Shown here in pieces: positions 2,347 to 55,107 of a stretch of DNA of 64,000 nt. This DNA is from Alteromonas sp. V450 (GTDB lineage Bacteria > Pseudomonadota > Gammaproteobacteria > Enterobacterales > Alteromonadaceae). The stretch covers positions 1,488,001 through 1,552,000 of the forward strand of contig NZ_MODU01000004.1 in NCBI RefSeq assembly GCF_001885075.1, given 5' to 3'. The translations under genes were made by a program, and so were the position numbers. Below the pieces are notes generated by a model that saw only the letters and a list, made by a program, of their open reading frames with translations, did no database searches and was not told the origin of the DNA. Each line of letters starts with the position of its first letter. The first letter of the stretch is position 1.

Positions 2347-3888
2347 ATGACAAAGCCGTTATCAATTTCAACGCTACCTCTTTTAAGTGACAGCGTAAGT
2401 AAACCAAACTACGATCTGGAAGCAACCGGTTGTGGCATTGTGCATATTGGTCCAGGCGCCTTTCACCGTGCGCACCAAGCGTATTACACCGAAAAGGCGT
2501 TGGCTTACGGTGGTGACTGGCGTATTCACGGTGTATCAATGCGCAGTGCATCACTTAAAGAAGCGTTGAATACACAAGACAATCTCTATGCGCTGTGTAT
2601 TGTTGATAACGAGCCTGAAACCCACATTATCGGCGCAATTAAAACCCTGTCTACATTAGCACATGATCGTGAAGACATTGTTGCTGCGCTGGTAAACAAG
2701 CAAACTAAAATAGTGACGCTTACCGTGACAGAAAAGGGCTATTGCCTTAATGCGCAAGGTCATCTGGATACCGACCATCCAGATATCAAAGCTGATTTAG
2801 TCACGCCTGAAACACCGGTAAGCGCTGTTGGCCTTATTGTGCAAGCGCTGTCTCAGCGAAAGCAGGCAGGCCACGCAGACATCACCATTATTAGCTGTGA
2901 CAATGTGTCAGATAACGGCAAGAAGCTTCAAAAAGCGGTAACCGAATTTGCTAATAAAACTGACGAGTCATTGGGTCAGTGGATCAGCGACAATATTTCC
3001 TTTCCCTGTACTATGGTCGACAGCATTACGCCTGCAACTGAAGACAGCTTTAAAGCTAATGTTGCCGATGAACTGGGTCTAACCGATAACTGGCCTATTC
3101 AGCGCGAGACATTTACTCAATGGGTAATTGAAGATAAGTTTTCTGGCCCAAGGCCCGCATGGGATAAAGTGGGCGTTACCTTTACCCATGATGTAAGCTT
3201 CTTTGAAAAGGCGAAGCTTCGCATCTTAAACGGTAGCCACTCAACATTAGCCTATTTAGGCTTACTACTTGGCAAAGAGACTGTCTTTGATGCGATAAGC
3301 ACCCCAGCCATCAAACAGCTGATTCAAACCATGTTACAAGAAGAAATCGTTCCATCTCTAAGTAGTGGTTGTGAAGATGACGCTCGCGGTACACAAAATT
3401 TCGACCTAAACGCTTATTCTCAAGATATTGTGAAGCGCTTCGAAAATAAGCATATCCGCCACCTTTTGTCGCAAATCGCTTGGGACGGCTCACAGAAAAT
3501 CCCATTTCGTATTCTCGACACAATACGCGATAACCTAAAAGCAAAACGAAATATTGATTTGCTCTGCACTGCCGTTGCTGCTTGGTGCCTATTTGTAAAC
3601 AACAAGGCACGTTTAAACGAAACTATCACCGACCCGCTAGATAGTATGTTAAGGGCTACAGCAAAATCGGTAGACTTTCAGGCAATAGAACTTGCAAAAA
3701 AATTGCTATCTCTTGAAACCATGTTCGCCGAACTGTCGGTAAACATTACGTTCAAAGAAAAAGTGCTCGAAAAAGTTAATCAGCTGCTTAACATTTTATC
3801 GCACGAAAACAGCAACGAAGGTCAGCAAGGTTCTGCTCCCACTACGTTAACAGAAAGTTCGCTAGATTCACTAAAAGGAACCGCGTGA
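2347..3888 (+). CDS. uxuB: Fructuronate reductase-type mannitol dehydrogenase family protein
   Basis: This 513-residue polyol dehydrogenase-family protein has the nucleotide-binding segment GIVHIGPGAFHRAHQA near residues 29-44 and KLRILNGSHSTLAYLG near 288-303. Those features are typical of UxuB (D-mannonate oxidoreductase), which interconverts fructuronate and D-mannonate with NAD(H). No uxuA (mannonate dehydratase) or separate uxaB is visible, while the neighbour is altronate dehydratase. It may therefore reduce tagaturonate as well, or uxaB and uxuA may lie upstream of the window; that is inference. Its TGA stop overlaps the ATG of eda by one base. Confidence 0.88.
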   Translation: MTKPLSISTLPLLSDSVSKPNYDLEATGCGIVHIGPGAFHRAHQAYYTEKALAYGGDWRIHGVSMRSASLKEALNTQDNLYALCIVDNEPETHIIGAIKTLSTLAHDREDIVAALVNKQTKIVTLTVTEKGYCLNAQGHLDTDHPDIKADLVTPETPVSAVGLIVQALSQRKQAGHADITIISCDNVSDNGKKLQKAVTEFANKTDESLGQWISDNISFPCTMVDSITPATEDSFKANVADELGLTDNWPIQRETFTQWVIEDKFSGPRPAWDKVGVTFTHDVSFFEKAKLRILNGSHSTLAYLGLLLGKETVFDAISTPAIKQLIQTMLQEEIVPSLSSGCEDDARGTQNFDLNAYSQDIVKRFENKHIRHLLSQIAWDGSQKIPFRILDTIRDNLKAKRNIDLLCTAVAAWCLFVNNKARLNETITDPLDSMLRATAKSVDFQAIELAKKLLSLETMFAELSVNITFKEKVLEKVNQLLNILSHENSNEGQQGSAPTTLTESSLDSLKGTA

Positions 3889-20312: not shown

Positions 20313-21221
20313 CTAATCTGGATAGGTTGCCATGGCGTTTATATTAGCAAACGCCATAATAACATCTTTCGCAAAATCAATTCTTGGGTGGCGAAGCGCC
20401 CCTTTTTTCCACACCAAATATATTTCATTTTCCGGCCCATCAGGCCCTATTTGTATTAACTCACCCTGCTTTATACCGTCCTTGCACAGGTAATCAGGTA
20501 GCACAGAATACCCTATTCCAGCCTTTATTATACTGCTTATTGCTCTGATATCGGGGCATACTGCTGCCACCGTTGATTCGCAAGGCGCGTTGAAGACTTC
20601 AGAAAAATAACTTCGGATTAAAGGAAGTTGCTCGTCGTAGGTGACAACTTTAAAGTCATTTAAACGTGCTGCCGTTACGTCTTCACTAAGTAGCATTTTA
20701 CCCTCAACACGGTTCATCACTAGAAGTAGACGCTCTTTGTCTAGTTTCAGGTACTCATACATCGGGTCAGTAGGTTCAGACGCAGTAATCGCAAGCTCAG
20801 CCACATCATTATTTAAAAGCTGATACGTATTGGTTTTATTCCCTGTATGGATGACAAGGTTTACTTTGTCTGCCTGCAGCAAATTGGCTAAAGCTGGCCC
20901 CGCAACAAAACTTAAATATTCAGCTGGACCTGCTAGATGTAGCGTACCGTGTACTGTTGAAGCTTTGCTGCGAATTGATGCTACTTTTTGCTCCAAGATA
21001 TCTACATGGTGAGAAACCTGTAGGGCCAAATCGTCTGCTGTTGGCGTTGGCTCTACCCCTCTTGCTTTTCGAATAAATAGTTCCTTTCCAACAATAGCTT
21101 CCATTGCCTGAATGTGTGAAGTTACGGCTGGCTGAGACATATGAAGACGCGCAGCAGCCCGCGTAATGTTGCCGCTTCGATAAACTTCTACAAAGGTTTT
21201 TAGCTGTGTTAGGTAAGACAT
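20313..21221 (-). CDS. LysR-family transcriptional regulator
   Basis: This LysR regulator of about 302 residues has an N-terminal winged HTH (GNITRAAARLHMSQPAVTSH) near residues 17-36 and a C-terminal substrate-binding-like effector domain. I chose the ATG at 21221 (MSYLTQLKTF) because it places the HTH at the usual distance from the N-terminus; the frame extends 12 codons further upstream. It is divergent from the DJ-1/PfpI gene, with about 110 bases between start codons, the classical arrangement for a LysR protein controlling its neighbour. The likely regulon is the DJ-1, YqhD-like and Old Yellow Enzyme genes. Confidence 0.9.
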   Translation of the reverse strand: MSYLTQLKTFVEVYRSGNITRAAARLHMSQPAVTSHIQAMEAIVGKELFIRKARGVEPTPTADDLALQVSHHVDILEQKVASIRSKASTVHGTLHLAGPAEYLSFVAGPALANLLQADKVNLVIHTGNKTNTYQLLNNDVAELAITASEPTDPMYEYLKLDKERLLLVMNRVEGKMLLSEDVTAARLNDFKVVTYDEQLPLIRSYFSEVFNAPCESTVAAVCPDIRAISSIIKAGIGYSVLPDYLCKDGIKQGELIQIGPDGPENEIYLVWKKGALRHPRIDFAKDVIMAFANINAMATYPD

Positions 21222-45724: not shown

Positions 45725-45808
45725 TTAGGGCACAAAGCGACCGCATTTCAGTCACAATAAAAGTGGACCTTTTTGTGGACCTGCTGATTTGCTATGGATA
45801 AGAGTTGA

Positions 45809-45900
45809 ATTGCCGTACAGGCTAGAAGTCAAGCGGGGTAAGGAATTGGTCGGTGTGAGAGGATTTGAACCTCCGACCCCTGACACCCCATGACAGTGCG
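45809..45900. repeat. Left 92-bp attachment repeat with displaced tRNA-Pro 3' fragment
   Basis: This 92-bp block is identical to 54993-55084. Bases 45847-45900 are the 3' 54 nucleotides of tRNA-Pro(GGG), and 38 further bases beyond the tRNA end are also identical. The 5' 23 nucleotides of the tRNA are absent, so the copy is non-functional. It marks the left boundary of an element inserted by site-specific recombination. Confidence 0.95.
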
Positions 45901-45948
45901 TGAAATGCGAAATCAAACGTATAAAAATCAATGACTTAAAAAATAAAT

Positions 45949-45979
45949 GTGCCCCTTTATGTGCCCCATAGAGTGCCCC
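45949..45979 (+). repeat. Left arm-type repeats, three GTGCCCC at 12-bp spacing
   Basis: GTGCCCC occurs at 45949, 45961 and 45973, exactly 12 bp apart. The same pattern occurs at the right end just upstream of the integrase start. Paired direct repeats flanking the core repeat are the expected form of arm-binding sites of a tyrosine integrase. Confidence 0.72.
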
Positions 45980-46014
45980 CAAAGTTATGTAAATTCATAC
46001 AAAAAAGTTTTATT

Positions 46015-46578
46015 TCACTCTTCAGGCGGCGGATCTAGACTCTCTCCCTGTTCGTCACCCACACCGAGCAAGGGGAGATATTTATTACCCAAGCTCATCC
46101 CCATATTCTCTACCTCTTTTGCAACTCGCTCAATCTCACTATCTAATTCGCCAAGACCAACAGTTCCAGTCGCGGATTGTTGACGATAAAACGAAACTTT
46201 CAACTCAGCGGCTGACGCTTTGACCTGAGCAATCATTATTTCAGCTTGTGCTTTCTGAATCTGGTTCTGTCGTTCCAACTCACCTCGAGAGTCTCTCATC
46301 TCTTGACGTTGCATAGCGAGTTCTTCTCTCTGAAGTTGAAGCTCTTTCCTTTGCATCATTATCGTGTAAATAAGTCCAGCAAAAGCTAACCCACTGAAGA
46401 GCGCATTGACTGCCCCGAATGAATCTCCGACCTGAGCTCTCGTCGCGAGATTCTCTACACTCAGAGGATATAAGTACCCGTTAAACAACCACATGGCTAA
46501 GACGATAAAAACAGCACCTATAAACCACCAAATACTTGTACCTTTTATCTCTCTTTCGGTTTTCTTCGGTTCGCTCAC
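46015..46578 (-). CDS. Membrane-anchored coiled-coil protein of unknown function
   Basis: This 187-residue protein has two N-terminal transmembrane helices (about residues 17-35 and 55-72), a short segment VGDSFGAVNALFSGLAFAGL, and a Gln/Glu/Arg-rich coiled coil (QRKELQLQREELAMQRQEMR) near residues 76-130, and ends acidic. Proteins with this layout are frequent in prophages and islands. I do not know a proven function. As the first gene inside the left att site it could be cargo, for example in superinfection exclusion; that is inference. Upstream sequence offers CTCTCC rather than a strong ribosome site on this strand. Confidence 0.72.
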   Translation of the reverse strand: MSEPKKTEREIKGTSIWWFIGAVFIVLAMWLFNGYLYPLSVENLATRAQVGDSFGAVNALFSGLAFAGLIYTIMMQRKELQLQREELAMQRQEMRDSRGELERQNQIQKAQAEIMIAQVKASAAELKVSFYRQQSATGTVGLGELDSEIERVAKEVENMGMSLGNKYLPLLGVGDEQGESLDPPPEE

Positions 46579-46744
46579 GCTCTCTCCTTGTAAATGCTGA
46601 GACTAAGTTTCACTGAAGGTAAAAGAAATTCACCAGGAGAACAACACTAATTAACATCAAGCACGCGAAACTGAATGGTCTCACCTAATAAGCAACTGAG
46701 TGTTTCTCTCGGCAAGTTGTCTAAAATTCATAAAGTTAGGGGTG

Positions 46745-46774
46745 TTGACGACTCTCTTTCCGTCTATTTAGGAT
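46745..46774 (+). promoter_or_regulatory. Sigma70-like promoter in the element
   Basis: TTGACG and TAGGAT are separated by 18 bp, a good match to -35 and -10 boxes. It lies 36 bases before the ATG at 46810. It would drive the rightward genes next to the left repeat cluster. Confidence 0.55.
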
Positions 46775-46801
46775 GTCTCCCGACACGATAAAACAGGAGA
46801 C
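46775..46801 (+). promoter_or_regulatory. Inverted repeat covering the ribosome-binding site
   Basis: GTCTCC and GGAGAC form a perfect 6-bp stem with a 15-base loop. The right arm contains the AGGAG Shine-Dalgarno of the gene at 46810, so folding could limit translation. It could instead be a protein operator. Confidence 0.4.
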
Positions 46802-46809
46802 GTAAAACG

Positions 46810-47192
46810 ATGGAATTCAACACAAACAACAACCACTTATTCAATAACCTCGTACTCGACTCTCAAGCTGTCATTAGAGCGTCGATGGACTCTCAGTCAT
46901 CACCATTAGATTAGATTACATCACTGACCTTCCTCCCGAACTCCAAGACATGCTCATGGATTATCTTTTAGAGGACGAACGGTTTGATGCGAGAGGAGTC
47001 TGTCCGGAAGACTTCCCCGACTTACTCTTCGCCGCTCGTCCTGGGGATGTCTACAACATCAAACTGAAAGATATTCTCTACTATCACTGGGAACCCACTG
47101 GCAACATAAGGAGCATCAAAGCGTTGATCGCTGAAGGATGTCCCTTTGTGCTTCTCTCGCCTAACCTTGTTTACCTGAGGAACCGAAGATAA
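46810..47192 (+). pseudogene. Unknown element gene, apparently frameshifted
   Basis: A 34-codon frame starts at the ATG at 46810 behind AGGAG (MEFNTNNNHLFNNLVLDS) and stops at 46912-46914. A second frame, open from 46878, overlaps it and reads VITIRLDYITDLPPELQDML, then ARPGDVYNIKLKDILYY, to the TAA at 47192. The second frame has no good start codon, and a single -1 shift joins the two into a protein of about 125 residues. I see no classical slippery heptamer, so a one-base indel or an unusual start is as likely as programmed frameshifting. The family is unknown. Confidence 0.45.
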
Positions 47193-47206
47193 GCGTCGTG
47201 TTTGCA

Positions 47207-47527
47207 GGAGATCGCCAAAACGCTGAAACCCACGGCTAACGCGGTCTCCAGAATTGTCGCCTCACTTAGAAGAGAGAACACCGTACCGACTGCTCATAGT
47301 TGAGGCCAAATTCTTGGAGATCGCCGAAACGCTGAAACCCACGTCTGACGCGGTCTCCAGAATTGTCCCTCTACATAGAAGAAAGAACACACGGAAATGA
47401 ATCCCTAAGACTATCGAAAAGGGCTAAATCTCAGAGATCGCCGAAACGCTGAAACCCAGGCGGGACGCGGTCTACAGAATTGTCGCGTCACTTAGAAGAA
47501 AGAATACACGGAAATGAATACTAAAGA
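47207..47527 (+). repeat. Left cluster of hairpin-forming repeats (three copies)
   Basis: Three units begin GAGATCGCC at 47208, 47317 and 47434 (spacing 109 and 117). The core of about 75 bp is nearly identical in copies 1 and 2. In these, GGAGATCGC pairs with GCGGTCTCC over 9 bp with one G-U pair, and a 25-base loop. Copy 3 keeps 7 bp. Copies 2 and 3 share a tail (ACACGGAAATGAAT and CTATCGAAAAG) that copy 1 lacks. In one frame each unit also reads as an HTH-like peptide (EIAETLKPTSDAVSRIV), but without a start codon. Confidence 0.85.
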
Positions 47528-47539
47528 CTATCGAAAAGA

Positions 47540-48046
47540 TCAATCCTTGAAATCATCGATATTTGCAATATTACCTGAGAGTTTTTTCAAGAGGTGTCTT
47601 CGATTTGGGTGAGGAATTTCATTCCAATAGAGAAGTTTGATTCCAGCTTTCGAGTAGTCTCCGGAGATATCTTTACGCTTTAACAAGTCATTTTCGCTCT
47701 TGACGACGATATGAACTTTTTCGAGACGCTTGACCTCTGAGACGAACTCTTCGACATTTTCGCCTTGTTCTATGTGTTTGGAAATTAGCTGAGTAAGCGT
47801 TGTTTGTATTCGATGAGGGTGCTCTAATACTAGCCCGACCGTTTGTCCATGCGCAACCGCTGCCTCACTTACATATCCAGAGAAGTACCTAACGTCCTTG
47901 CTAAGTTCACGAGCGAACCAATGAGTGTAACCAGTGCGGGCTCCACGAGCATTCAGAAGTCCGACTCTAACAGTCTGCATGATTATTTCATAAACAAACT
48001 CAAGTTTCTCTTCGATAGTCGCGAGTTTAAGTTCAGTCTTGCTCAT
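47540..48046 (-). CDS. Unknown element protein between the repeat clusters
   Basis: This protein of about 168 residues starts at an ATG preceded by AGGGTGAATCTT; a GTG three codons upstream is an alternative. It is mostly alpha-helical with an N-terminal coiled segment (TELKLATIEEKLEFVYEII), a basic centre and an acidic C-terminus. I recognise no domain. It reads opposite to the repeats and separates them, and its upstream region removes the left arm of repeat copy 4, as if the gene was inserted into an original continuous array. Confidence 0.6.
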   Translation of the reverse strand: MSKTELKLATIEEKLEFVYEIIMQTVRVGLLNARGARTGYTHWFARELSKDVRYFSGYVSEAAVAHGQTVGLVLEHPHRIQTTLTQLISKHIEQGENVEEFVSEVKRLEKVHIVVKSENDLLKRKDISGDYSKAGIKLLYWNEIPHPNRRHLLKKLSGNIANIDDFKD

Positions 48047-48103
48047 AAGATTCACCCTAAAAAACAGATCTTAGTTTAACTAATGATATCTGATACTGCA
48101 TCA

Positions 48104-48395
48104 CAAACCCACGGCTAGCGCTGTCTCCAGAATTGTCCCCCCACTTAGAAGAAAGAACACCGTATCGACGGCTCAAAGTTGAGGGCAAAAACACGGAGAT
48201 CGCCGAAACGCTGAAACCCACGTCTGAAGCGGTCTCCAGAATTGTCCCCTCACTTAGAAGAAAGAACATCGCATCGATTGTTAAAAGTTAAGGACAGAAT
48301 CGAGAAGATCTCAGAAACGCTGAAGCCCAGCTCTGACGGGGTCTCCGGAATTGTCCCTGCACTTAGAAGAAAGAACACTCGAGTTTTTCGAAGAA
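48104..48395 (+). repeat. Right cluster of hairpin-forming repeats (three copies)
   Basis: Copies 4, 5 and 6 have the period 109 bp (virtual start 48087, then 48196 and 48305). Copy 4 is truncated at its left end and lacks the left stem arm. Copy 5 keeps the full 9-bp stem GGAGATCGC/GCGGTCTCC. Copy 6 has AGATCTC opposite GGGGTCT, where the G-C pair of other copies is replaced by T-G, so pairing is maintained although both strands changed. Copies 1, 4 and 5 share a spacer similar to ACCGTATCGACGGCTCAAAG. Confidence 0.85.
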
Positions 48396-48469
48396 AACAC
48401 AGGCAGGTCGTCATGCTTGTAGCCTTCGAGAGTAAAGCCCTGACGTAAGACCTTGCCCTTAACCTCACA

Positions 48470-48490
48470 AGGCTGTCAGGCAGCCTCTTT
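48470..48490 (+). terminator. Small hairpin after the repeat array
   Basis: AGGCTG and CAGCCT form a 6-bp stem with a 5-base loop, followed by CTTTTC. It separates the repeats from the capsid operon. Its strength is doubtful. Confidence 0.4.
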
Positions 48491-48573
48491 TCATTCTCAT
48501 CGATTCACTCATCAGAATATTTTTTTGCGAATTTACATAACGATTCACCATCAACGATACAGGAGTAAACACC

Positions 48574-48777
48574 ATGTCACACATAGCAACCCGAAATGAA
48601 TACGGTACTTCAAGACGCCGTTTCGCCTTCAGCGCAGACAGAACGACGGAAAGTCGAATTTTGGACGCACAGAAACGCCTCTCCGAAATCACCGGAGTTC
48701 AACCGAGTGTCTCAGCGGCAATCGCTTACCTCGTTAAACAAGGTCACGAAGCAACATCGCGAAAGAACTCTATTTAA
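48574..48777 (+). CDS. Small putative DNA-binding protein (RHH-like)
   Basis: This 67-residue protein starts at an ATG behind AGGAGTAAACACC. It has a basic N-terminus with GTSRRRFAFSADRTTESRIL and two predicted helices (ILDAQKRLSEITG and SVSAAIAYLVKQGHEA), a layout like ribbon-helix-helix proteins. It starts a run of co-directional genes leading to the capsid gene and may regulate that operon. The assignment is inferred from pattern only. Confidence 0.55.
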   Translation: MSHIATRNEYGTSRRRFAFSADRTTESRILDAQKRLSEITGVQPSVSAAIAYLVKQGHEATSRKNSI

Positions 48778-48800
48778 AAACATCTCAAAGGAATATACCA

Positions 48801-49172
48801 ATGACACCAAATGAAGCAACGGAGTTACCTCCAGCAATAAACAAAGCCCTGTCCAATGCAGCGGCTCCTACTCGCACCTATACACTGAAAGTTCACAAGA
48901 ATGTTTCTGAACTTTTCGAGATACTCAAGGATGACCTCGAGTCTGTCACAAAGACCTCGCTCTCACGCTCAAACGTGCTTAAACACCTAGTTCTTTTCTG
49001 GTTCGATATGGTCAATGAACATTCCAGCGACAGAGAATGTCTTGCCTACTACATGAATAGAATCATGGAGAAAAATCGACGCGCTGTCATGGCGAAAGAC
49101 TACAAGCATTTTAATCCTGAAAGTTCAGCCGTTAAGACTCACTCCCAAACAACTCCCCAGGTAAACGACTAA
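48801..49172 (+). CDS. Putative RHH-like protein upstream of the capsid gene
   Basis: This 123-residue protein starts at an ATG behind AAAGGAATATACCA, 23 bases after the preceding stop. RTYTLKVHKNVSELFEILKD followed by SLSRSNVLKHLVLFWF resembles a beta-strand and two helices of a ribbon-helix-helix fold. The C-terminal tail is polar and probably disordered. A scaffold role for the capsid is an alternative, given its position directly before the capsid gene and its size. Neither is proven. Confidence 0.55.
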   Translation: MTPNEATELPPAINKALSNAAAPTRTYTLKVHKNVSELFEILKDDLESVTKTSLSRSNVLKHLVLFWFDMVNEHSSDRECLAYYMNRIMEKNRRAVMAKDYKHFNPESSAVKTHSQTTPQVND

Positions 49173-49272
49173 TCACTGTAAATCCAACGCTCATGGCGCT
49201 GGTCTTCTCGACCAATTAGGGCAACGACATGAGTGCAACCTCCGCCCTTTATCATCAATACAAGGAAACAAC

Positions 49273-50292
49273 ATGGAACTACCAGTTCAAAACCGTACCT
49301 TTAACGACCTTATCGACAACGCTCAACCAGAGCAGATCCCCACGTTTGACAAGGAGTCTAATTTTAAAGGATTCCGTCAAGCCGCCCCCTCAACTATGAG
49401 TCTCTCAATCAACGCACCTCTGATTCAAGGCGATGAAGAAAGCAAACTTCTGGAGAACTCTCGTTCACTTCTTCGAGACCTAACCGTTGCGAATAGCCCT
49501 AACATCACAAATTCGAAGAAGAGAAACGATGTGACGTGGAGACACATCATCATTAGTGCAAACGTGTTGTCAAAAGCTGGGATGACCATCGACACGAGTG
49601 GACAGTTCGAAGGAACACCGTTCATCGCTGGATTCGATAGCGCGGTCAGTGCGACATGGCTAGGTGAGAATGCCGAGATCCCCGAGTCAACTCCAACGAC
49701 CATCAATTTCCCCTATGAGATACACACTATCGGTGCGTTCTCGATGGTATCTCGACGCATGAGAAAACTTGTTCCGGCATTAAACAGTGAGTTGAGTATA
49801 GCCCAGGCTAATGCTATTCGAGAGGCGCTTGAAGTCGCTTTCCTGACGGGAGACGCTTCGACTAACCCTAATCAACCTGATGGACTATTGAAGTCTATTT
49901 CGCAATCCCTGACGCCAAAGTCCAATATTACAGGCACAATCGCCGATGTTCTTGAGGTATTGGAAACGAAGAAACTAGGCGTTGACTCTCTTTCGACAAT
50001 CGTATCGGTAGACGTAGCTAAAAAGATGCGCCTGGAGACAGCTTCGCGAGTATTCAAAGACCTTGATATTCAGAATATACAGGTCTCTCCTCACCTTCCA
50101 AACGGCACTCTCATCGCTGGGCGCTTCGCTGACTTCATCGGCATTACTGGCAATCAAATCGAGTTCCTCGCTCACAGCTTCACGCCTGAAGGCGAACCAG
50201 AAACAGGAGCGACTCGAATCCGTTCAATGTTCGACGCTGACTGTAAAATCTTAAATCAAGACAGCTTCGTGAAAATCGAAGGCATTGTCTAA
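49273..50292 (+). CDS. HK97-fold phage major capsid protein
   Basis: This 339-residue protein matches the Phage_capsid family. Signature stretches are AGFDSAVSATWLGENAEIPE near residues 119-138, NFPYEIHTIGAFSMVSRRM near 144-162, REALEVAFLTGDASTNPNQP near 187-206 and a C-terminal beta region ending DSFVKIEGIV. The segment before about residue 75 is helical and charged and could be a scaffolding (delta) domain. The ATG follows AAGGAAACAAC. No prohead protease, portal or terminase gene lies beside it, which is unusual because head genes normally cluster. The next gene (50352) may belong to the same transcript. Confidence 0.85.
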   Translation: MELPVQNRTFNDLIDNAQPEQIPTFDKESNFKGFRQAAPSTMSLSINAPLIQGDEESKLLENSRSLLRDLTVANSPNITNSKKRNDVTWRHIIISANVLSKAGMTIDTSGQFEGTPFIAGFDSAVSATWLGENAEIPESTPTTINFPYEIHTIGAFSMVSRRMRKLVPALNSELSIAQANAIREALEVAFLTGDASTNPNQPDGLLKSISQSLTPKSNITGTIADVLEVLETKKLGVDSLSTIVSVDVAKKMRLETASRVFKDLDIQNIQVSPHLPNGTLIAGRFADFIGITGNQIEFLAHSFTPEGEPETGATRIRSMFDADCKILNQDSFVKIEGIV

Positions 50293-50351
50293 ATGACTCG
50301 CCCTGGGGACTCCCTCGGGGCAACACTCCCCACAAACAAAGGATTCAATCA

Positions 50352-50699
50352 ATGAGCAAACTTCAATTTGAAATCGCTATGCAACACGCGAAAGGCGCTA
50401 TCTTTTCGACCCGAGCTGGAGACATCGATCAGGACTTTAACCTCGAGGGAGCCGGAGCGAGGATCGTCGTTCAAGACTTCGGAAACTACAATCCATTTAT
50501 CCTAAACGACAACACGAAAAACTGGTTAAAGCGAGCATACAAACTCACCGAAAACGAAGCGACCCAAGTATATCGATATCTCGTTTCGTGTGCTCGAGAG
50601 GATATCCTGGAACGTCGTCGAATGATGACAAGACAGAGCCAACGTTCCTCTTTCTCTCATCCATACATCGAATGGTTGAAGGGTCAAACCAGACATTGA
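50352..50699 (+). CDS. Unknown protein downstream of the capsid gene
   Basis: This 115-residue basic protein starts at an ATG behind AAAGGATTCAATC, 59 bases after the capsid stop. It begins SKLQFEIAMQHAKGAIFSTR, has a helical centre (NWLKRAYKLTENEATQVYRY) and an Arg-rich C-terminal third. I recognise no family. Position suggests a head-associated, decoration or DNA-binding function, which is inference. Confidence 0.55.
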   Translation: MSKLQFEIAMQHAKGAIFSTRAGDIDQDFNLEGAGARIVVQDFGNYNPFILNDNTKNWLKRAYKLTENEATQVYRYLVSCAREDILERRRMMTRQSQRSSFSHPYIEWLKGQTRH

Positions 50700-50989
50700 T
50701 CTTAAAGATTGTCCTTTCGATGAAGTGACAAACGAAAAGACAGGGAGGTTCTTTGTTTTCATACCTCCCATTCTCTCGAACTTTACTTAAAGACTCTCGT
50801 CGAGCCCTACACGAAAGGACACTCTTTTGGGGTTTGTCGAAAGCGTTCACTCGACGACTAACTTTAAGACCGCTAATCCATTATTTCATTGGAAGAAAAA
50901 AGGTCTCTCGCTCGTCTCTTCGGGTCGTTTCGATCCCCTCGTTTCGTCAGTCTTTAAGTCCCCTTATATATACAAGACATATTAAAACT

Positions 50990-51499
50990 ATGGAAAAACA
51001 ACTCGAATTTTTCACTCTCTTAGATTTTGAGGAGTGCTTCTTAGAAAATGAAGTCCCCCCCTCCCCACGAGGTCGAGGGAAACCCCCAGTTTCGATAAAG
51101 AATCCCCTCAATGGGATCCCAGCGTCTAGCTTCATGAGTCTCGAAGGACGTCCTCATGTCTGGCTCGATGACTGTCTCATGGGCGCAATCCGAACGCTCG
51201 GAATAAAAGACAGCCGAGCGACCTCAACGAAGAACTACGTCAGTCTGAACAAGGTCTTCACGGTTCTTTGTTCGATGCCTGGTGAGATTACAACGCCACG
51301 AGTGAGAGACGCGCTGGGAGTTAGCCGAGACTATGCCTGGCGTATTGTAAAGGTAATTGAGTTTGCCTCCTGGTCAATCGAAAGAGCGTTAAGCGCCCCC
51401 TCGAGGATCAAGGAGTACCGCTCCCCAGGATGTTTCTCACTCCCTGCACACGTTCCGATTGAAACCCGAGAACAGAATTCCACGCCTTCCGATACATGA
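50990..51499 (+). CDS. Unknown element protein with HTH-like segment
   Basis: From the ATG at 50990 (MEKQLEFFTLLDFEECF) the product is about 169 residues. A helix-turn-helix-like stretch PRVRDALGVSRDYAWRIVKV lies near residues 102-121, preceded by LNKVFTVLCSMPGEIT. The frame runs upstream to 50753, but those residues look non-coding and have no ribosome site. TTTAAG and TATATA boxes at about 50953-50970 could be a promoter. It may be a regulator or replication-linked protein of the element; that is inference. Confidence 0.5.
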   Translation: MEKQLEFFTLLDFEECFLENEVPPSPRGRGKPPVSIKNPLNGIPASSFMSLEGRPHVWLDDCLMGAIRTLGIKDSRATSTKNYVSLNKVFTVLCSMPGEITTPRVRDALGVSRDYAWRIVKVIEFASWSIERALSAPSRIKEYRSPGCFSLPAHVPIETREQNSTPSDT

Positions 51500-51941
51500 A
51501 CTGAAGGAGCCCCAGAAGTAAGCGCGACGACCCTCTCTAGCTAAGCCAATAAGGGAGCACATTACTCACTCGTTTTGACAGCCGAAGAACAGAGTCACCG
51601 TTCCCCCCTGGAGAAAGCTTAGCATGGCTGACCATCGGTACACCTCGGTGAGAGCGCATCGCCAAAAGCTGTCTCCTCGAATTCATTGACGTTCGAGTAA
51701 CTTACTTCTTTTGCAGTCTCGAGAGCAAAGAGATGACCTGAAGTCCAGTCGCAGAGAGCGTAGGTACTTTCCAGGCTCTAGCTCGAGGGTGATTCGCGCC
51801 GCGTTCTTTCATTTGTGGGAGGGATCCTGGGGACAGCCTTTATGTTGTTACTCCTCGGGAGACCGCCATACATCCACCAATCGCATTATTTGAATGTAAA
51901 GCATAATTCCAATTCAATTATATAATCAAAGGTATACTGAT
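51500..51941. other. 442-base gene-free stretch in the element
   Basis: No convincing gene is present. Bases 51658-51683 (ATCGCCAAAA, then GTCTCC, then GAATT) follow the same word order as the core of the 109-bp repeats with the middle deleted, so a decayed seventh copy is possible. ACCTCGGTGAG near 51640 forms a small hairpin. In a compact element such a stretch may hold an RNA, replication origin or packaging site. Confidence 0.35.
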
Positions 51942-52379
51942 ATGAAAACTACTTCTTACAACGAACTGATGAAGCGTTACGCTGACCGCTATTACACCAG
52001 GAAAAACACCGATAGGATTCACGTCCTGGTTAATCATGCCGCATGGAGTGTGCTGAAAGGCCGCCCTCACGACGGAGCACAAGTCCACATCGAAAGCTAC
52101 GATGAGACAGGCGAAAGACTTCTTTTAACGATGACTCATGGGTCAGTTCGTCTTTTCAATTCTCGCCTTAAATCGGTGGATAAACTCGACGGAGACTGGG
52201 AGAAATCTCTAGCCGACGACGGAGGCTTCCTTGTGTTTAACTCAGAGGAAATCGACAAGGTTGCAGAAGCGTTCGGCATCAAGAAGAAGCAACAACGGGA
52301 AGCGCTGACGAGCGCTCAAAAAGATGAACTGGTAAAGCGACTAACTCATTCTGAGAATGACCGGAAAATTCTACCCTAG
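51942..52379 (+). CDS. Unknown element protein
   Basis: This 145-residue protein starts at an ATG behind AAAGGTATACTGAT. The first half looks like a small beta-rich domain (DRIHVLVNHAAWSVLKGR, then LLLTMTHGSVRLFNSRLKS) and the second half is helical and charged (EEIDKVAEAFGIKKKQQREA). I do not recognise it. It is the last rightward gene before the convergent ClpP-like gene. Confidence 0.55.
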   Translation: MKTTSYNELMKRYADRYYTRKNTDRIHVLVNHAAWSVLKGRPHDGAQVHIESYDETGERLLLTMTHGSVRLFNSRLKSVDKLDGDWEKSLADDGGFLVFNSEEIDKVAEAFGIKKKQQREALTSAQKDELVKRLTHSENDRKILP

Positions 52380-52443
52380 CTCATGGACGGTCAAAGTCTC
52401 CAAATATCATGATGTCTTTATGTGTCACAAGTAGTGACTATAC

Positions 52444-53379
52444 CTAAAAGAACTTGATCTTTCTCGTAGGCAGCGACTCAACACATCTTGACTCTCTGCC
52501 GCCTCTAAAATCAGGAAAGGCAGTTTTTGCGAAACTTTCACACTTGCTATAATCGGAAAAACCAATCTCATTTTGGCATTTACTAATCACAGCGTGAAAT
52601 CTGCGCTCTAGATCCACATAGTCAGCGCCGCAGTGCTTTATTTTCAATGCTTTTCTGTATTCTTTCGCTGCTATGTTGTCGGCTCCTAACCCGTATTCAT
52701 TGCGCTGCCGCAAAGAGAGGATTTTAATTTCATCTGAGGGAATAACGTTCATGTCATCTATCAGTTTAGGAGATACACCAAACTTTACTAAATAGTCTTT
52801 CAACGTGGGAGTTAACGTTTTATAAATACTTAGGTATTCGGAATATGAAGCGATAGATGGGTCCAATTCATGAGTGAATGGTCTATGGATACCTACTTTT
52901 CCGTACACATTTCTAATTTCAGCCGCTGCATATATGAATATACACGAGCTAAAACAAACACTTTCCTCGGGTACCTCTAGGGCAAAAAAAGCGGGCGAGT
53001 TGGCAACCATCTCCCCGATTTTAAGAGCAGGTTCTATTAGGCCGCCATTACTATCAACTACGAAATTCATATAATCTTGTGACTCATGAAGTAGATAGAA
53101 TCGGTTTGCTGTATTTAATGTTTTTCTGAACGTCTGAAGGGTTTCCCATGTAATTTCCCCTTCAATGTGAAGTGCTTCTATATTGCAGCCTTCTTCTAAA
53201 ATCGCAGTCCAATTTAAGACATCCGATATTGACTCTTCCGTAATTTCCGGAAACCTACCGTCACCATTGAAACAGTGCTCTTTGTTCAGTTTTAAATATA
53301 TCTGTGCATCAGAAGCAAACAAGCCAAACGACGTAACCAACAAAAAGACTGTAAACAACGCACGCGATAAGTTCGACAT
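52444..53379 (-). CDS. Exported ClpP/SppA-like serine protease-fold protein
   Basis: This protein of about 311 residues has a signal peptide (LFTVFLLVTSFGLFASDA). Residues about 108-125 (VVDSNGGLIEPALKIGEM), then VCFSSCIFIYAAAE near 143 and VGIHRPF near 165, match the crotonase/ClpP fold of COG3904-type periplasmic proteins, with Ser in SSC and a following His. I chose the ATG at 53379, which places the signal peptide at the N-terminus, instead of the frame start at 53442. Such proteins occur in many proteobacteria with unproven function. Here it is carried between capsid operon and integrase and is probably cargo. Confidence 0.75.
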   Translation of the reverse strand: MSNLSRALFTVFLLVTSFGLFASDAQIYLKLNKEHCFNGDGRFPEITEESISDVLNWTAILEEGCNIEALHIEGEITWETLQTFRKTLNTANRFYLLHESQDYMNFVVDSNGGLIEPALKIGEMVANSPAFFALEVPEESVCFSSCIFIYAAAEIRNVYGKVGIHRPFTHELDPSIASYSEYLSIYKTLTPTLKDYLVKFGVSPKLIDDMNVIPSDEIKILSLRQRNEYGLGADNIAAKEYRKALKIKHCGADYVDLERRFHAVISKCQNEIGFSDYSKCESFAKTAFPDFRGGRESRCVESLPTRKIKFF

Positions 53380-53559
53380 ATAAACTCCCTTTAATAATGT
53401 CAATAATAGTGGGGTTGAAGGTACCTTAGAGATATAAATCACTCAGCTTATAAACATACCCTAGATTTTTCACAAACAAAACCATTAGAGGTGTCATCAA
53501 ACTTTTTAACAAAACGACTTTCTTTTTGAAAATTGGTCTGTAATTAGCCAACGACTCGA

Positions 53560-54930
53560 CTAACTGCTGACCCAAGCCTGCATACACTTTGCTCGATGTA
53601 TTTGCTCAATATACTTCCATAGCTCGCTTTTGTTGCTGTACTTACTGTAAAGGCCATAAGTGAGAGATATACGTTTATGTCCGGCCAATGTAACAGCGAG
53701 GTCTTCGGGGCATCCAATCTCCTCAAGCGCTGTTGCGAAATGACCTCTCAAACTGTGTAGACTTACCTTGTAGCCCTCAATCTTAGCGAAGTTTCTCGTG
53801 ATAGATGAGACTTTACTCGAAATTGAATTGAGGGCTTGCTCTGGAGTCAAGCCTTCAGCCTCACCAACCTCAGGAAACAACCAGGGAGAACTCCCAGATC
53901 TCGCGATAGCGTCAAGCAACAAAGGTTCAATGACTGGACTCACTGGAATGATGCGTTTCGCATTCTTTGTCTTTCCTTTTCTCACCTCAAAGAAATAATG
54001 CCCATCATGTTCCTGAACTTGGTCTTTTAGAGCCGTACCGAGCTCACTTCGACGACACCCCAAGAATGGAAGTAGACGAGGAAGCGCATAAGTGGCGAAA
54101 GGATAAGGCCAAGACTCAGAGTTCATAGCTTCAAGACGCGTTTCTTTTAAAAGGGTCTCGGCCTCTTCTGTGGTTAAATTCCTGAAATGGGACTGCTCCT
54201 TCTGCTCAACGGGAGCCTCCACCTTGACGTCTTTCCATGAGTTTGAACCAGTGAACCTTTCTCTCGTTAGTCCCCACCTCCAAACTTCAGCGAGTTTACT
54301 TTTGTAATGTGAGACAGTGCCAGCAGAGAGACCTTTGGCGATTAAGCTGTCCAAAAAGCCTTGTGCATAACCTGGAGAAACGTTTTCCGGCAACTCATCG
54401 CCTCCTAGGAATTCAATGAGAAACTTTGAGGCAGTCTCAACAGTACTGCTGTATTTGGCGTTCTTAATCCCTTTGTTTGCTTTGAGCCACTCTTGAGTTA
54501 GTTCAGAGATAGTTAAACGGTACTGTTCAGGTACGTCCTCATGAACAATTGAATAGTACGCCGCCTTATATGTTTCGTCGTTTTCCTTCCGCTGGAGATC
54601 TGGGTCGAAAGAATCGAGAAAATAATTGTCATCCCATTTCCCTTCTCTTACCTTCCGGCGTCCTTCATCGTAGTGAGGTTTCATTTCAGAATATAAAGCT
54701 TGAAAACGGTTCTTCAGTGGCAACCCAGACTTTTCTTCCTCCAACTTCAAGTCGATCTGAGCGTTGAGAGCGTCTCGCTTCACTCTGGCCTGCGTCAGAC
54801 TCTTAGTCTCCAACGATTGCTTTAAGAAGGTTCCGCTATTGAAGTATTTACGTAGTTTTTCAGGTATACGACGACGAAACATCCACACGCCGGAATCGTT
54901 ACGAGTGAGATATTTAGTATCAGATTTCAT
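53560..54930 (-). CDS. int: Tyrosine recombinase/integrase of the element
   Basis: This 456-residue phage-type integrase has an N-terminal DUF6538-like arm-binding region (SGVWMFRRRIPEKLRKYF), a SAM-like core-binding domain near residues 150-250 and a C-terminal catalytic domain. Catalytic residues are visible: Arg in LGCRRSELG near 293, Lys in KGKTKNAKR near 320, HSLRGH near 391, His in LAGHKRISL near 416 and the nucleophile Tyr in YGLYSKYS near 425. Its 5' end faces the tRNA-Pro attachment repeat 62 bases away, the usual placement. Three GTGCCCC repeats lie directly upstream of its start codon. Confidence 0.93.
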   Translation of the reverse strand: MKSDTKYLTRNDSGVWMFRRRIPEKLRKYFNSGTFLKQSLETKSLTQARVKRDALNAQIDLKLEEEKSGLPLKNRFQALYSEMKPHYDEGRRKVREGKWDDNYFLDSFDPDLQRKENDETYKAAYYSIVHEDVPEQYRLTISELTQEWLKANKGIKNAKYSSTVETASKFLIEFLGGDELPENVSPGYAQGFLDSLIAKGLSAGTVSHYKSKLAEVWRWGLTRERFTGSNSWKDVKVEAPVEQKEQSHFRNLTTEEAETLLKETRLEAMNSESWPYPFATYALPRLLPFLGCRRSELGTALKDQVQEHDGHYFFEVRKGKTKNAKRIIPVSPVIEPLLLDAIARSGSSPWLFPEVGEAEGLTPEQALNSISSKVSSITRNFAKIEGYKVSLHSLRGHFATALEEIGCPEDLAVTLAGHKRISLTYGLYSKYSNKSELWKYIEQIHRAKCMQAWVSS

Positions 54931-54935
54931 GAAAT

Positions 54936-54966
54936 GTGCCCCTCAATGTGCCCTGAATTGTGCCCC
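54936..54966 (+). repeat. Right arm-type repeats, GTGCCC(C/T) at 12-bp spacing
   Basis: GTGCCCC, GTGCCCT and GTGCCCC occur at 54936, 54948 and 54960, exactly 12 bp apart, in the same orientation as the three copies at the left end. They lie between the integrase start codon and the right core repeat, so they may bind integrase for recombination and for self-regulation. Confidence 0.72.
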
Positions 54967-54992
54967 AGAGTTTTTCGTTGAAGAGATTTTAT

Positions 54993-55084
54993 ATTGCCGT
55001 ACAGGCTAGAAGTCAAGCGGGGTAAGGAATTGGTCGGTGTGAGAGGATTTGAACCTCCGACCCCTGACACCCCATGACAGTGCG
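54993..55084. repeat. Right 92-bp attachment repeat
   Basis: This block is identical to 45809-45900 and overlaps the 3' 54 nucleotides of the intact tRNA-Pro gene. The element between the two copies is about 9.2 kb. Confidence 0.95.
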
Positions 55085-55107
55085 CTACCAGGCTGCGCTA
55101 CACACCG
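55031..55107 (-). tRNA. tRNA-Pro (anticodon GGG)
   Basis: The 77-nt minus-strand sequence starts CGGTGTGTAGCGCAGCC and ends CACACCGACCA with encoded CCA. The acceptor stem pairs CGGTGTG with CACACCG, the T arm has GGTTCAAATCC, and the anticodon region CTGTCATGGGGTGTCAG matches E. coli tRNA-Pro(GGG) with a compensatory C-G to T-A change in the anticodon stem. It is the integration target of the element and is kept intact at the right end. Confidence 0.95.

Follow-up and report, generated by a model that had tools for sequence, protein, structure and literature searches.

The 64,000 bp window of the Alteromonas sp. V450 genome analyzed here (contig NZ_MODU01000004.1, positions 1,488,001 to 1,552,000) contains a compact element integrated at a tRNA-Pro gene, between window positions 45809 and 55084. 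The element is very probably a cohesive-end (cos) type phage satellite, which would be switched on by the RNA polymerase (RNAP) of a helper phage, packaged by the helper's terminase, and would make use of a homolog of the helper's capsid protein. The initial annotation had proposed a satellite from the gene content, and this is now strongly supported by a cos site and a promoter-like array, both of helper type and both conserved in four elements. Three general features of phage satellites are present, i.e., an integrase with attachment (att) sites, an incomplete set of virion genes, and a cis-acting site of helper type.

Anatomy and relatives of the element

The element is bounded by direct repeats that are identical at 92 of 92 positions (attL, 45809-45900; attR, 54993-55084; 9,184 bp from start to start). 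The attL copy is the 3′ part of tRNA-Pro, and attR overlaps the intact gene (anticodon GGG, 55031-55107, minus strand), which is the integration target. The repeats enclose genes for a tyrosine integrase and an HK97-type capsid protein, small genes that mostly lack a family match, and a repeat array. This anatomy, first described from the sequence alone (9.2 kb, 92 bp repeats, tRNA-Pro, integrase, lone HK97 capsid gene, and array), is confirmed by repeat, ARAGORN, and profile searches. Pfam and PHROG searches of the window's open reading frames (ORFs) of 67 amino acids (aa) and longer also gave the same outcome as the initial annotation in that no terminase, portal, protease, tail-assembly, lysis, or replication gene was recognized. 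Some coiled-coil matches to tail proteins, with E-values of 0.001-0.02, were disregarded as weak.

The capsid gene is single copy in this strain. It is carried by three of 299 genomes of the family, this strain included, and by one further genome of the order; a class-wide genome sample contained no further carrier. The three relatives are in Aliiglaciecola sp. CAU 1673 (L004), the gammaproteobacterial metagenome-assembled genome (MAG) HF-Dia12 (L005), and Neiella litorisoli (L007). The Aliiglaciecola element uses the same tRNA-Pro, has 60 bp repeats 9,242 bp apart, and its capsid and integrase are 73 and 80% identical to those in the window. The Neiella element is located at tRNA-Ser(TGA) with 36 bp repeats spaced 8,486 bp. 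The MAG element lies between 19 bp repeats spaced 8,825 bp that resemble the 3′ end of ssrA, although ARAGORN made no call on this contig. The four elements are thus 8.5-9.2 kb in size, with three kinds of attachment site and differing integrases. The repeat array, the capsid gene, and the gene adjoining it (50352-50699) are kept in all four, the 50990-51499 gene is kept in three of four, and a small DNA-binding-type gene (48574-48777) is found in three and was not detected in Neiella. None of the three relatives contains another head or tail module.

Promoter-like array and cos site

The repeat array spans 47194-48407 with a unit of 109-117 bp. It contains six promoter-like copies on the plus strand, at 47246-47279, 47355-47388, 47472-47505, 48125-48158, 48234-48267, and 48343-48376, the last of which is directed at the capsid operon. 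The Aliiglaciecola, MAG, and Neiella elements have two, five, and four copies, and in every element the copies are upstream of, and oriented toward, the capsid operon. The motif occurs nowhere else in the 4.39 Mb host genome. Among 296 other genomes of the family without the element, it gave a single match in one genome, which is about chance level.

The array motif pointed to a single IMG/VR record, UViG_2888218590 (hereafter G1024; loci L143, L144, and L256), a 42 kb prophage with pgsA at one end and an integrase near the other. Across 40 kb of G1024, a matrix trained on ten satellite copies only finds exactly three sites, all on the sense strand, at 3842, 4020, and 18045. Their scores are 22.0, 35.5, and 51.5, compared with a maximum of 9.3 in 30 block shuffles. 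Two of the sites are just 3′ of an 805 aa gene (ending at 3746) that encodes a T7-type RNAP (PF00940, E-value 2.3e-108), and the third is ahead of the late genes. The motif includes CACATAGGAGA, which resembles the T7 promoter's start region (CACTATAGGGAGA); the two sequences share 10-11 of 23 positions overall. In two phages whose RNAPs are 37 and 34% identical, a different repeat, TTTTTGTCGGCCC-AAGGATTAACCA, follows the RNAP gene and recurs a few hundred bases further along (L254, 7513-8501; L255, 4106-4805). These repeats are probably the cognate promoters, and a different repeat at the equivalent place in phages with related RNAPs is the behavior expected of such promoters. We infer from position and sequence that the array consists of six copies of a promoter for a helper-type, T7-type RNAP.

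G1024 also encodes a T7-type single-stranded DNA-binding protein and helicase-primase, a DNA polymerase A, a Nu1 small terminase, and a lambda-family portal, and its capsid protein carries a fused S78 protease. Isolated phages with related terminases include Alexa and Mica. G1024 is a temperate phage integrated beside pgsA in which a T7-type RNAP and replication module are joined to lambda-type packaging and a long tail.

A BLASTN of the four elements against G1024 resulted in two shared non-coding blocks, one of them (G1024 20787-20881) directly upstream of the small terminase gene (TerS), which starts at 20905. Window positions 51763-51825 match G1024 20795-20857 with 79% identity over 63 bp (E-value 1.7e-7). 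The same site is matched by the Aliiglaciecola (L004 3570-3637, 83%), MAG (L005 7302-7390, 75%), and Neiella (L007 9453-9522, 79%) elements, with E-values of 3e-10, 1e-9, and 1.6e-7 among these relatives, and the alignment gives GGGTNATTCGCACCCCG...TTTCANTTCTGNGAGGG. In Neiella the block is directly upstream of the element's own TerS, which is a phage-like arrangement; this Nu1-type small terminase (PHROG_57, E-value 1.7e-20), present in the Neiella element only, is 40% identical to that of G1024. IMG/VR contigs of phages with related terminases start at the core of the block (L168, L169, L170, L178, L191-L193, L156, and L157), as expected of virion ends. The contig start in L168, L169, and L170 is GGTAATTCGCGCCGCG, compared with GGTGATTCGCGCCGCG in the window. 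For Achromobacter phage Mano, PhageTerm called a cohesive end at the corresponding position, and the GGGTCCTTCC block lies upstream of it there as well. A 19-base cos pattern, which is partly circular since it was built with these sequences in view, has four matches among 2.9 million viral contigs, all from this phage group. Because the match lies upstream of terminase genes, contigs start there, and the mapped cohesive end of Mano is at the corresponding position, we identify the 63 bp block common to the four elements as the cos site of Nu1/GpA-type phages. In the window this putative packaging cut site is placed at 51761-51823 on the plus strand, with its core GGTGATTCGCGCCGCG starting at 51788.

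The array could instead be a part of the packaging or replication machinery, i.e., extra terminase-binding sites or an origin rather than promoters. Multiple direct repeats would fit such a role, as would the lack of a replication gene in the element, and T7-type replication origins contain promoters, so that both roles may coincide. We regard this as unlikely, since the motif in G1024 follows the RNAP gene and precedes the DNA-replication and late clusters, at least 2.8 kb from cos, and since in related phages that position is taken by another repeat. Other candidate explanations for the array were rejected. Its 109-nt spacing is not a multiple of three, which is inconsistent with coding repeats by inspection; as a structured RNA it folds no better than shuffles (z +1.3); and it is not cos, because the cos block is directly upstream of TerS and the motif follows the RNAP gene. 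A looser scan of the 2.9 million contigs returned 118 stretches, with no convincing copy in those inspected, and one motif match (L011) was judged to be chance.

Capsid protein and proposed life cycle

The product of 49273-50292 (plus strand) is an HK97-type major capsid protein (Pfam Phage_capsid, E-value 1.6e-13; PHROG_10, E-value 7.9e-14) without a protease domain. An AlphaFold model from 34 sequences has a predicted local distance difference test (pLDDT) score of 71 and a predicted template modeling (pTM) score of 0.67; with four sequences only, the pLDDT was 32. The model matches 377 solved chains in the PDB at E-values of 0.001 or lower, and the matches listed are HK97-fold capsids and encapsulins. 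HK97-fold matches were also found in BFVD, and a search of solved structures by sequence gave no match. The satellite capsid profile aligns with the C-terminal capsid part of the G1024 fusion (E-value 1.6e-7), and among isolated phages the protein matches only Mica and Alexa, both in the terminase group related to G1024. It aligns over the HK97 core with 14-19% identity to the aligned phage proteins. The stretch before the conserved RDLT motif is 67 residues long in the window protein and 67-69 in the satellite proteins. The phage fragments aligned have at least 96 residues there, and the complete G1024 fusion, counting protease and linker, has 388.

Compared with the Aliiglaciecola copy, the capsid gene has proportions of nonsynonymous and synonymous differences (pN and pS) of 0.17 and 0.70, and a ratio of the corresponding substitution rates (dN/dS) of 0.098, with dS near saturation. 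The gene is therefore a working one under purifying selection. This bears on the alternative, raised in the initial annotation, of a decayed prophage stripped of all but its capsid gene. A single structural gene and prophage-typical att sites are what such a remnant would leave. Nevertheless, all four elements have kept one reduced gene set in one order, and none has a further head or tail module; the capsid dN/dS is 0.10, and the cos and promoter motifs are conserved in non-coding DNA. The initial annotation had also suggested seeking the same gene set at tRNA-Pro elsewhere in the genus; the 10 other islands checked at this tRNA (L243-L252) have at most the integrase in common with the element and match no other element protein. 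We consider decay extremely improbable.

For the cos-type satellite, we infer the following course of induction, replication, packaging, capsid sizing, and transfer. The element would stay silent at tRNA-Pro until infection by a suitable tailed phage, one that encodes a T7-type single-subunit RNAP and a lambda-type (Nu1/GpA) terminase and whose HK97-type capsid protein carries a fused protease. The helper RNAP would recognize the six-promoter array (47246-48376) and transcribe the capsid operon from 48574 to about 51499, and the element's own integrase would excise it. Because the element has no replication gene, copying would fall to enzymes of the helper or the host, perhaps with priming at the array promoters. 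The helper terminase would then recognize and cut cos (51761-51823) and package the 9.2 kb DNA. The capsid homolog, with its shorter N-terminal region and no protease, would enter the shell together with the helper capsid protein, by analogy with Ccm of SaPIbov5, and the resulting heads would be too small for the 42 kb phage. Portal, protease, large terminase (TerL), and tail would be supplied by the helper. A volume estimate suggests a T=3-like shell for a 9 kb genome, compared with 42 kb, or a dimer in T=4.

The strategy in the initial annotation differs from this in that the satellite protein alone would build the whole shell, with portal, protease, and terminase taken from a helper. The protein does align with the entire HK97 core of the helper-type capsid protein and folds as such, its low identity to phage proteins (14-19%) may make mixed capsomers difficult, and it always occurs together with another conserved protein (50352). 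On the other hand, it has no fused protease and a short N-terminal region, and Ccm, the best-studied parallel, is confined to the pentamers in a T=4 shell and is unable to form capsids by itself (PMC5052747; PMC8569155). A shell built by the satellite protein alone is possible, if somewhat doubtful, and it cannot be told from sequence apart from a Ccm-like mixture. The initial annotation took its strategy to be one not known as described; Ccm is in fact a precedent, as a cos satellite's lone HK97-fold homolog of its helper's capsid protein (PMC5052747; PMC8569155).

The element could also be an anti-phage interference island, in which the capsid homolog poisons helper assembly, cos serves mainly as a terminase decoy, and transfer is minor or absent. 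A helper-induced capsid homolog and the promoter array would both harm the phage, and accessory cargo genes differ between elements. The integrase, intact att sites, and tight size range of 8.5-9.2 kb point instead to mobility, as do the four host lineages, the three kinds of site, and the Nu1-type TerS beside cos in Neiella. We find this explanation quite improbable.

Several points weigh against a cos-type satellite driven by a helper RNAP. The promoter activity of the array and its polymerase specificity are deduced from where the copies lie and how they read, and no RNAP was found in the fragments of three phages bearing the motif (L148, L149, and L167). G1024 is related to the helper and is not the helper itself, because its own host is more distant; pgsA matches across 198 genomes of the order reach about 65-71% identity at best. 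The G1024 terminase was found in 0 of 299 family genomes at E-values of 1e-100 or lower, and no helper phage is known for this host. The window element is also without the TerS and HNH genes that some relatives carry. Three scans of IMG/VR viral contigs revealed no capsid relative, and with no satellite of the family found in that database encapsidation is not seen directly.

Known satellites and other genes of the element

The closest known parallel is the cos-type Staphylococcus aureus pathogenicity islands (SaPIs) such as SaPIbov5, which are likewise integrative, with a helper-like cos and a lone HK97-fold homolog with a shortened N-terminal domain, and have no other capsid genes. Our element differs in its gammaproteobacterial host, its integrases, the lack of a primase or rep gene and of a recognized Stl-type switch, the helper RNAP-type promoter array, and the fusion of the helper-type capsid protein to a protease. 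At about 9 kb it is also below most SaPIs in size. No family of the SaPI backbone (Stl repressor, pri/rep) was found among the window ORFs with Pfam and PHROG. The element thus works like a cos SaPI but fails membership, because the backbone is missing. It extends a Ccm-like single capsid homolog in a cos satellite beyond Staphylococcus, to an unrelated family in marine Gammaproteobacteria.

P4 satellites rely on helper cos packaging, and their late genes are activated in a helper-dependent manner. These are likenesses to our element, yet P4 acts via the Sid scaffold, a helper activator, and its own replication protein, none of which was found here; Sid, Psu, Delta, and the alpha primase had no match in the window ORFs (Pfam, PHROG). 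Capsid-forming phage-inducible chromosomal islands (cf-PICIs) and MulchRoom carry whole head modules (PMC10690885). Their capsid protein is also satellite-encoded, but it comes with portal and terminases, and in cf-PICIs with protease; the family described here has the capsid gene only, plus TerS in one relative. Of the cf-PICI set (protease, portal, connectors, TerS, TerL, and HNH), the window has none beside its capsid gene in the Pfam and PHROG searches. PISP satellite-plasmids and PICIs with capsid protein E (PF03864) are similar in having a lone or near-lone capsid homolog. They differ in the capsid family and in the protease and TerS that accompany protein E in PISPs (PMC13230959), which are moreover plasmid-borne. 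The phage-inducible chromosomal minimalist islands (PICMIs) are small marine satellites with minimal gene sets too, and do not remodel capsids (PMC10803314). Unlike our element, PICMIs have AlpA and a primase, integrate by fis, and undergo headful-like packaging as concatemers; an AlpA-type regulator and primase had no match in the window ORFs of the size scanned.

The family and its promoter capture seem new and are set apart from cos SaPIs, cf-PICIs, PISPs, PICMIs, and P4, and no report of satellites using helper polymerase promoters was found in the open-access papers searched. The array suggests an induction route in which the satellite copies the helper's phage-polymerase promoters and is then activated by that polymerase. 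A further reading, possible but less likely than not, is a new family that has the helper's T7-type RNAP as its on-switch, acting through an amplified array of captured promoters that are perhaps also replication origins, and that makes the shell from its own capsid protein, with portal, protease, terminase, and tail from the helper. The cos site, promoters, and capsid homolog all indicate one type of phage, so the helper can be sought directly, and tests can address how capsid size is controlled, how small a satellite's gene set can be, and how promoters are captured.

The remaining genes are small or accessory. Upstream of the array are a minus-strand accessory gene for a small coiled-coil membrane protein (46015-46578; DUF6082/phrog_8999-like), with a homolog in the Aliiglaciecola element, and a small protein with no family assignment (46950-47192, plus strand), also present in the Aliiglaciecola and MAG elements and weakly similar to a 114 aa protein of G1024. 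An accessory minus-strand gene (47540-48055), not found in the other three elements, divides the promoter-like array into three and three copies. In the capsid operon, all on the plus strand, the protein of 48574-48777 is probably a ribbon-helix-helix DNA-binding protein by inspection (65 and 60% identical in the Aliiglaciecola and MAG elements), and that of 48801-49172 is 45% identical in Aliiglaciecola. The 115 aa core protein (50352-50699), whose gene always adjoins the capsid gene, is 63, 37, and 35% identical in the three relatives, and the product of 50990-51499 is probably a helix-turn-helix protein. Beyond cos are a 145 aa accessory gene without family match in Pfam or PHROG (51942-52379, plus strand), a predicted exported protein that is ClpP/SppA-like by eye and without a Pfam or PADLOC match (52444-53442, minus strand; accessory cargo), and the tyrosine integrase (53560-54930, minus strand; PHROG_1, E-value 2.6e-34). 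HNH or endonuclease VII-like zinc-finger genes are close to the cos site in the three relatives, with no such ORF in the window. GTGCCCC repeats (family D5) within the left (45945-45979) and right (54932-54966) ends are probably integrase arm-type sites.

The tRNA-Pro(GGG) gene is an integration hotspot in the genus, with extra repeat copies 2.5-20 kb or more away in about 10 genomes. The left flank of attL (45752-45808) is not conserved in the genus and contains TGGACC repeats, which suggests a second island adjoining this side of the element. A second integrase likewise adjoins the MAG element (L005 3839-5140), where another island may be inserted alongside. In Neiella, five direct repeats of 38-39 bp (L007 11504-11692) are upstream of a helix-turn-helix-type gene and are possible operator or origin iterons. 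Accessory slots in the Aliiglaciecola (L004 2158-2961 and 8666-9136) and MAG (L005 5496-6380) elements hold DUF5677 proteins and a weakly restriction-enzyme-like protein, possibly anti-phage cargo.

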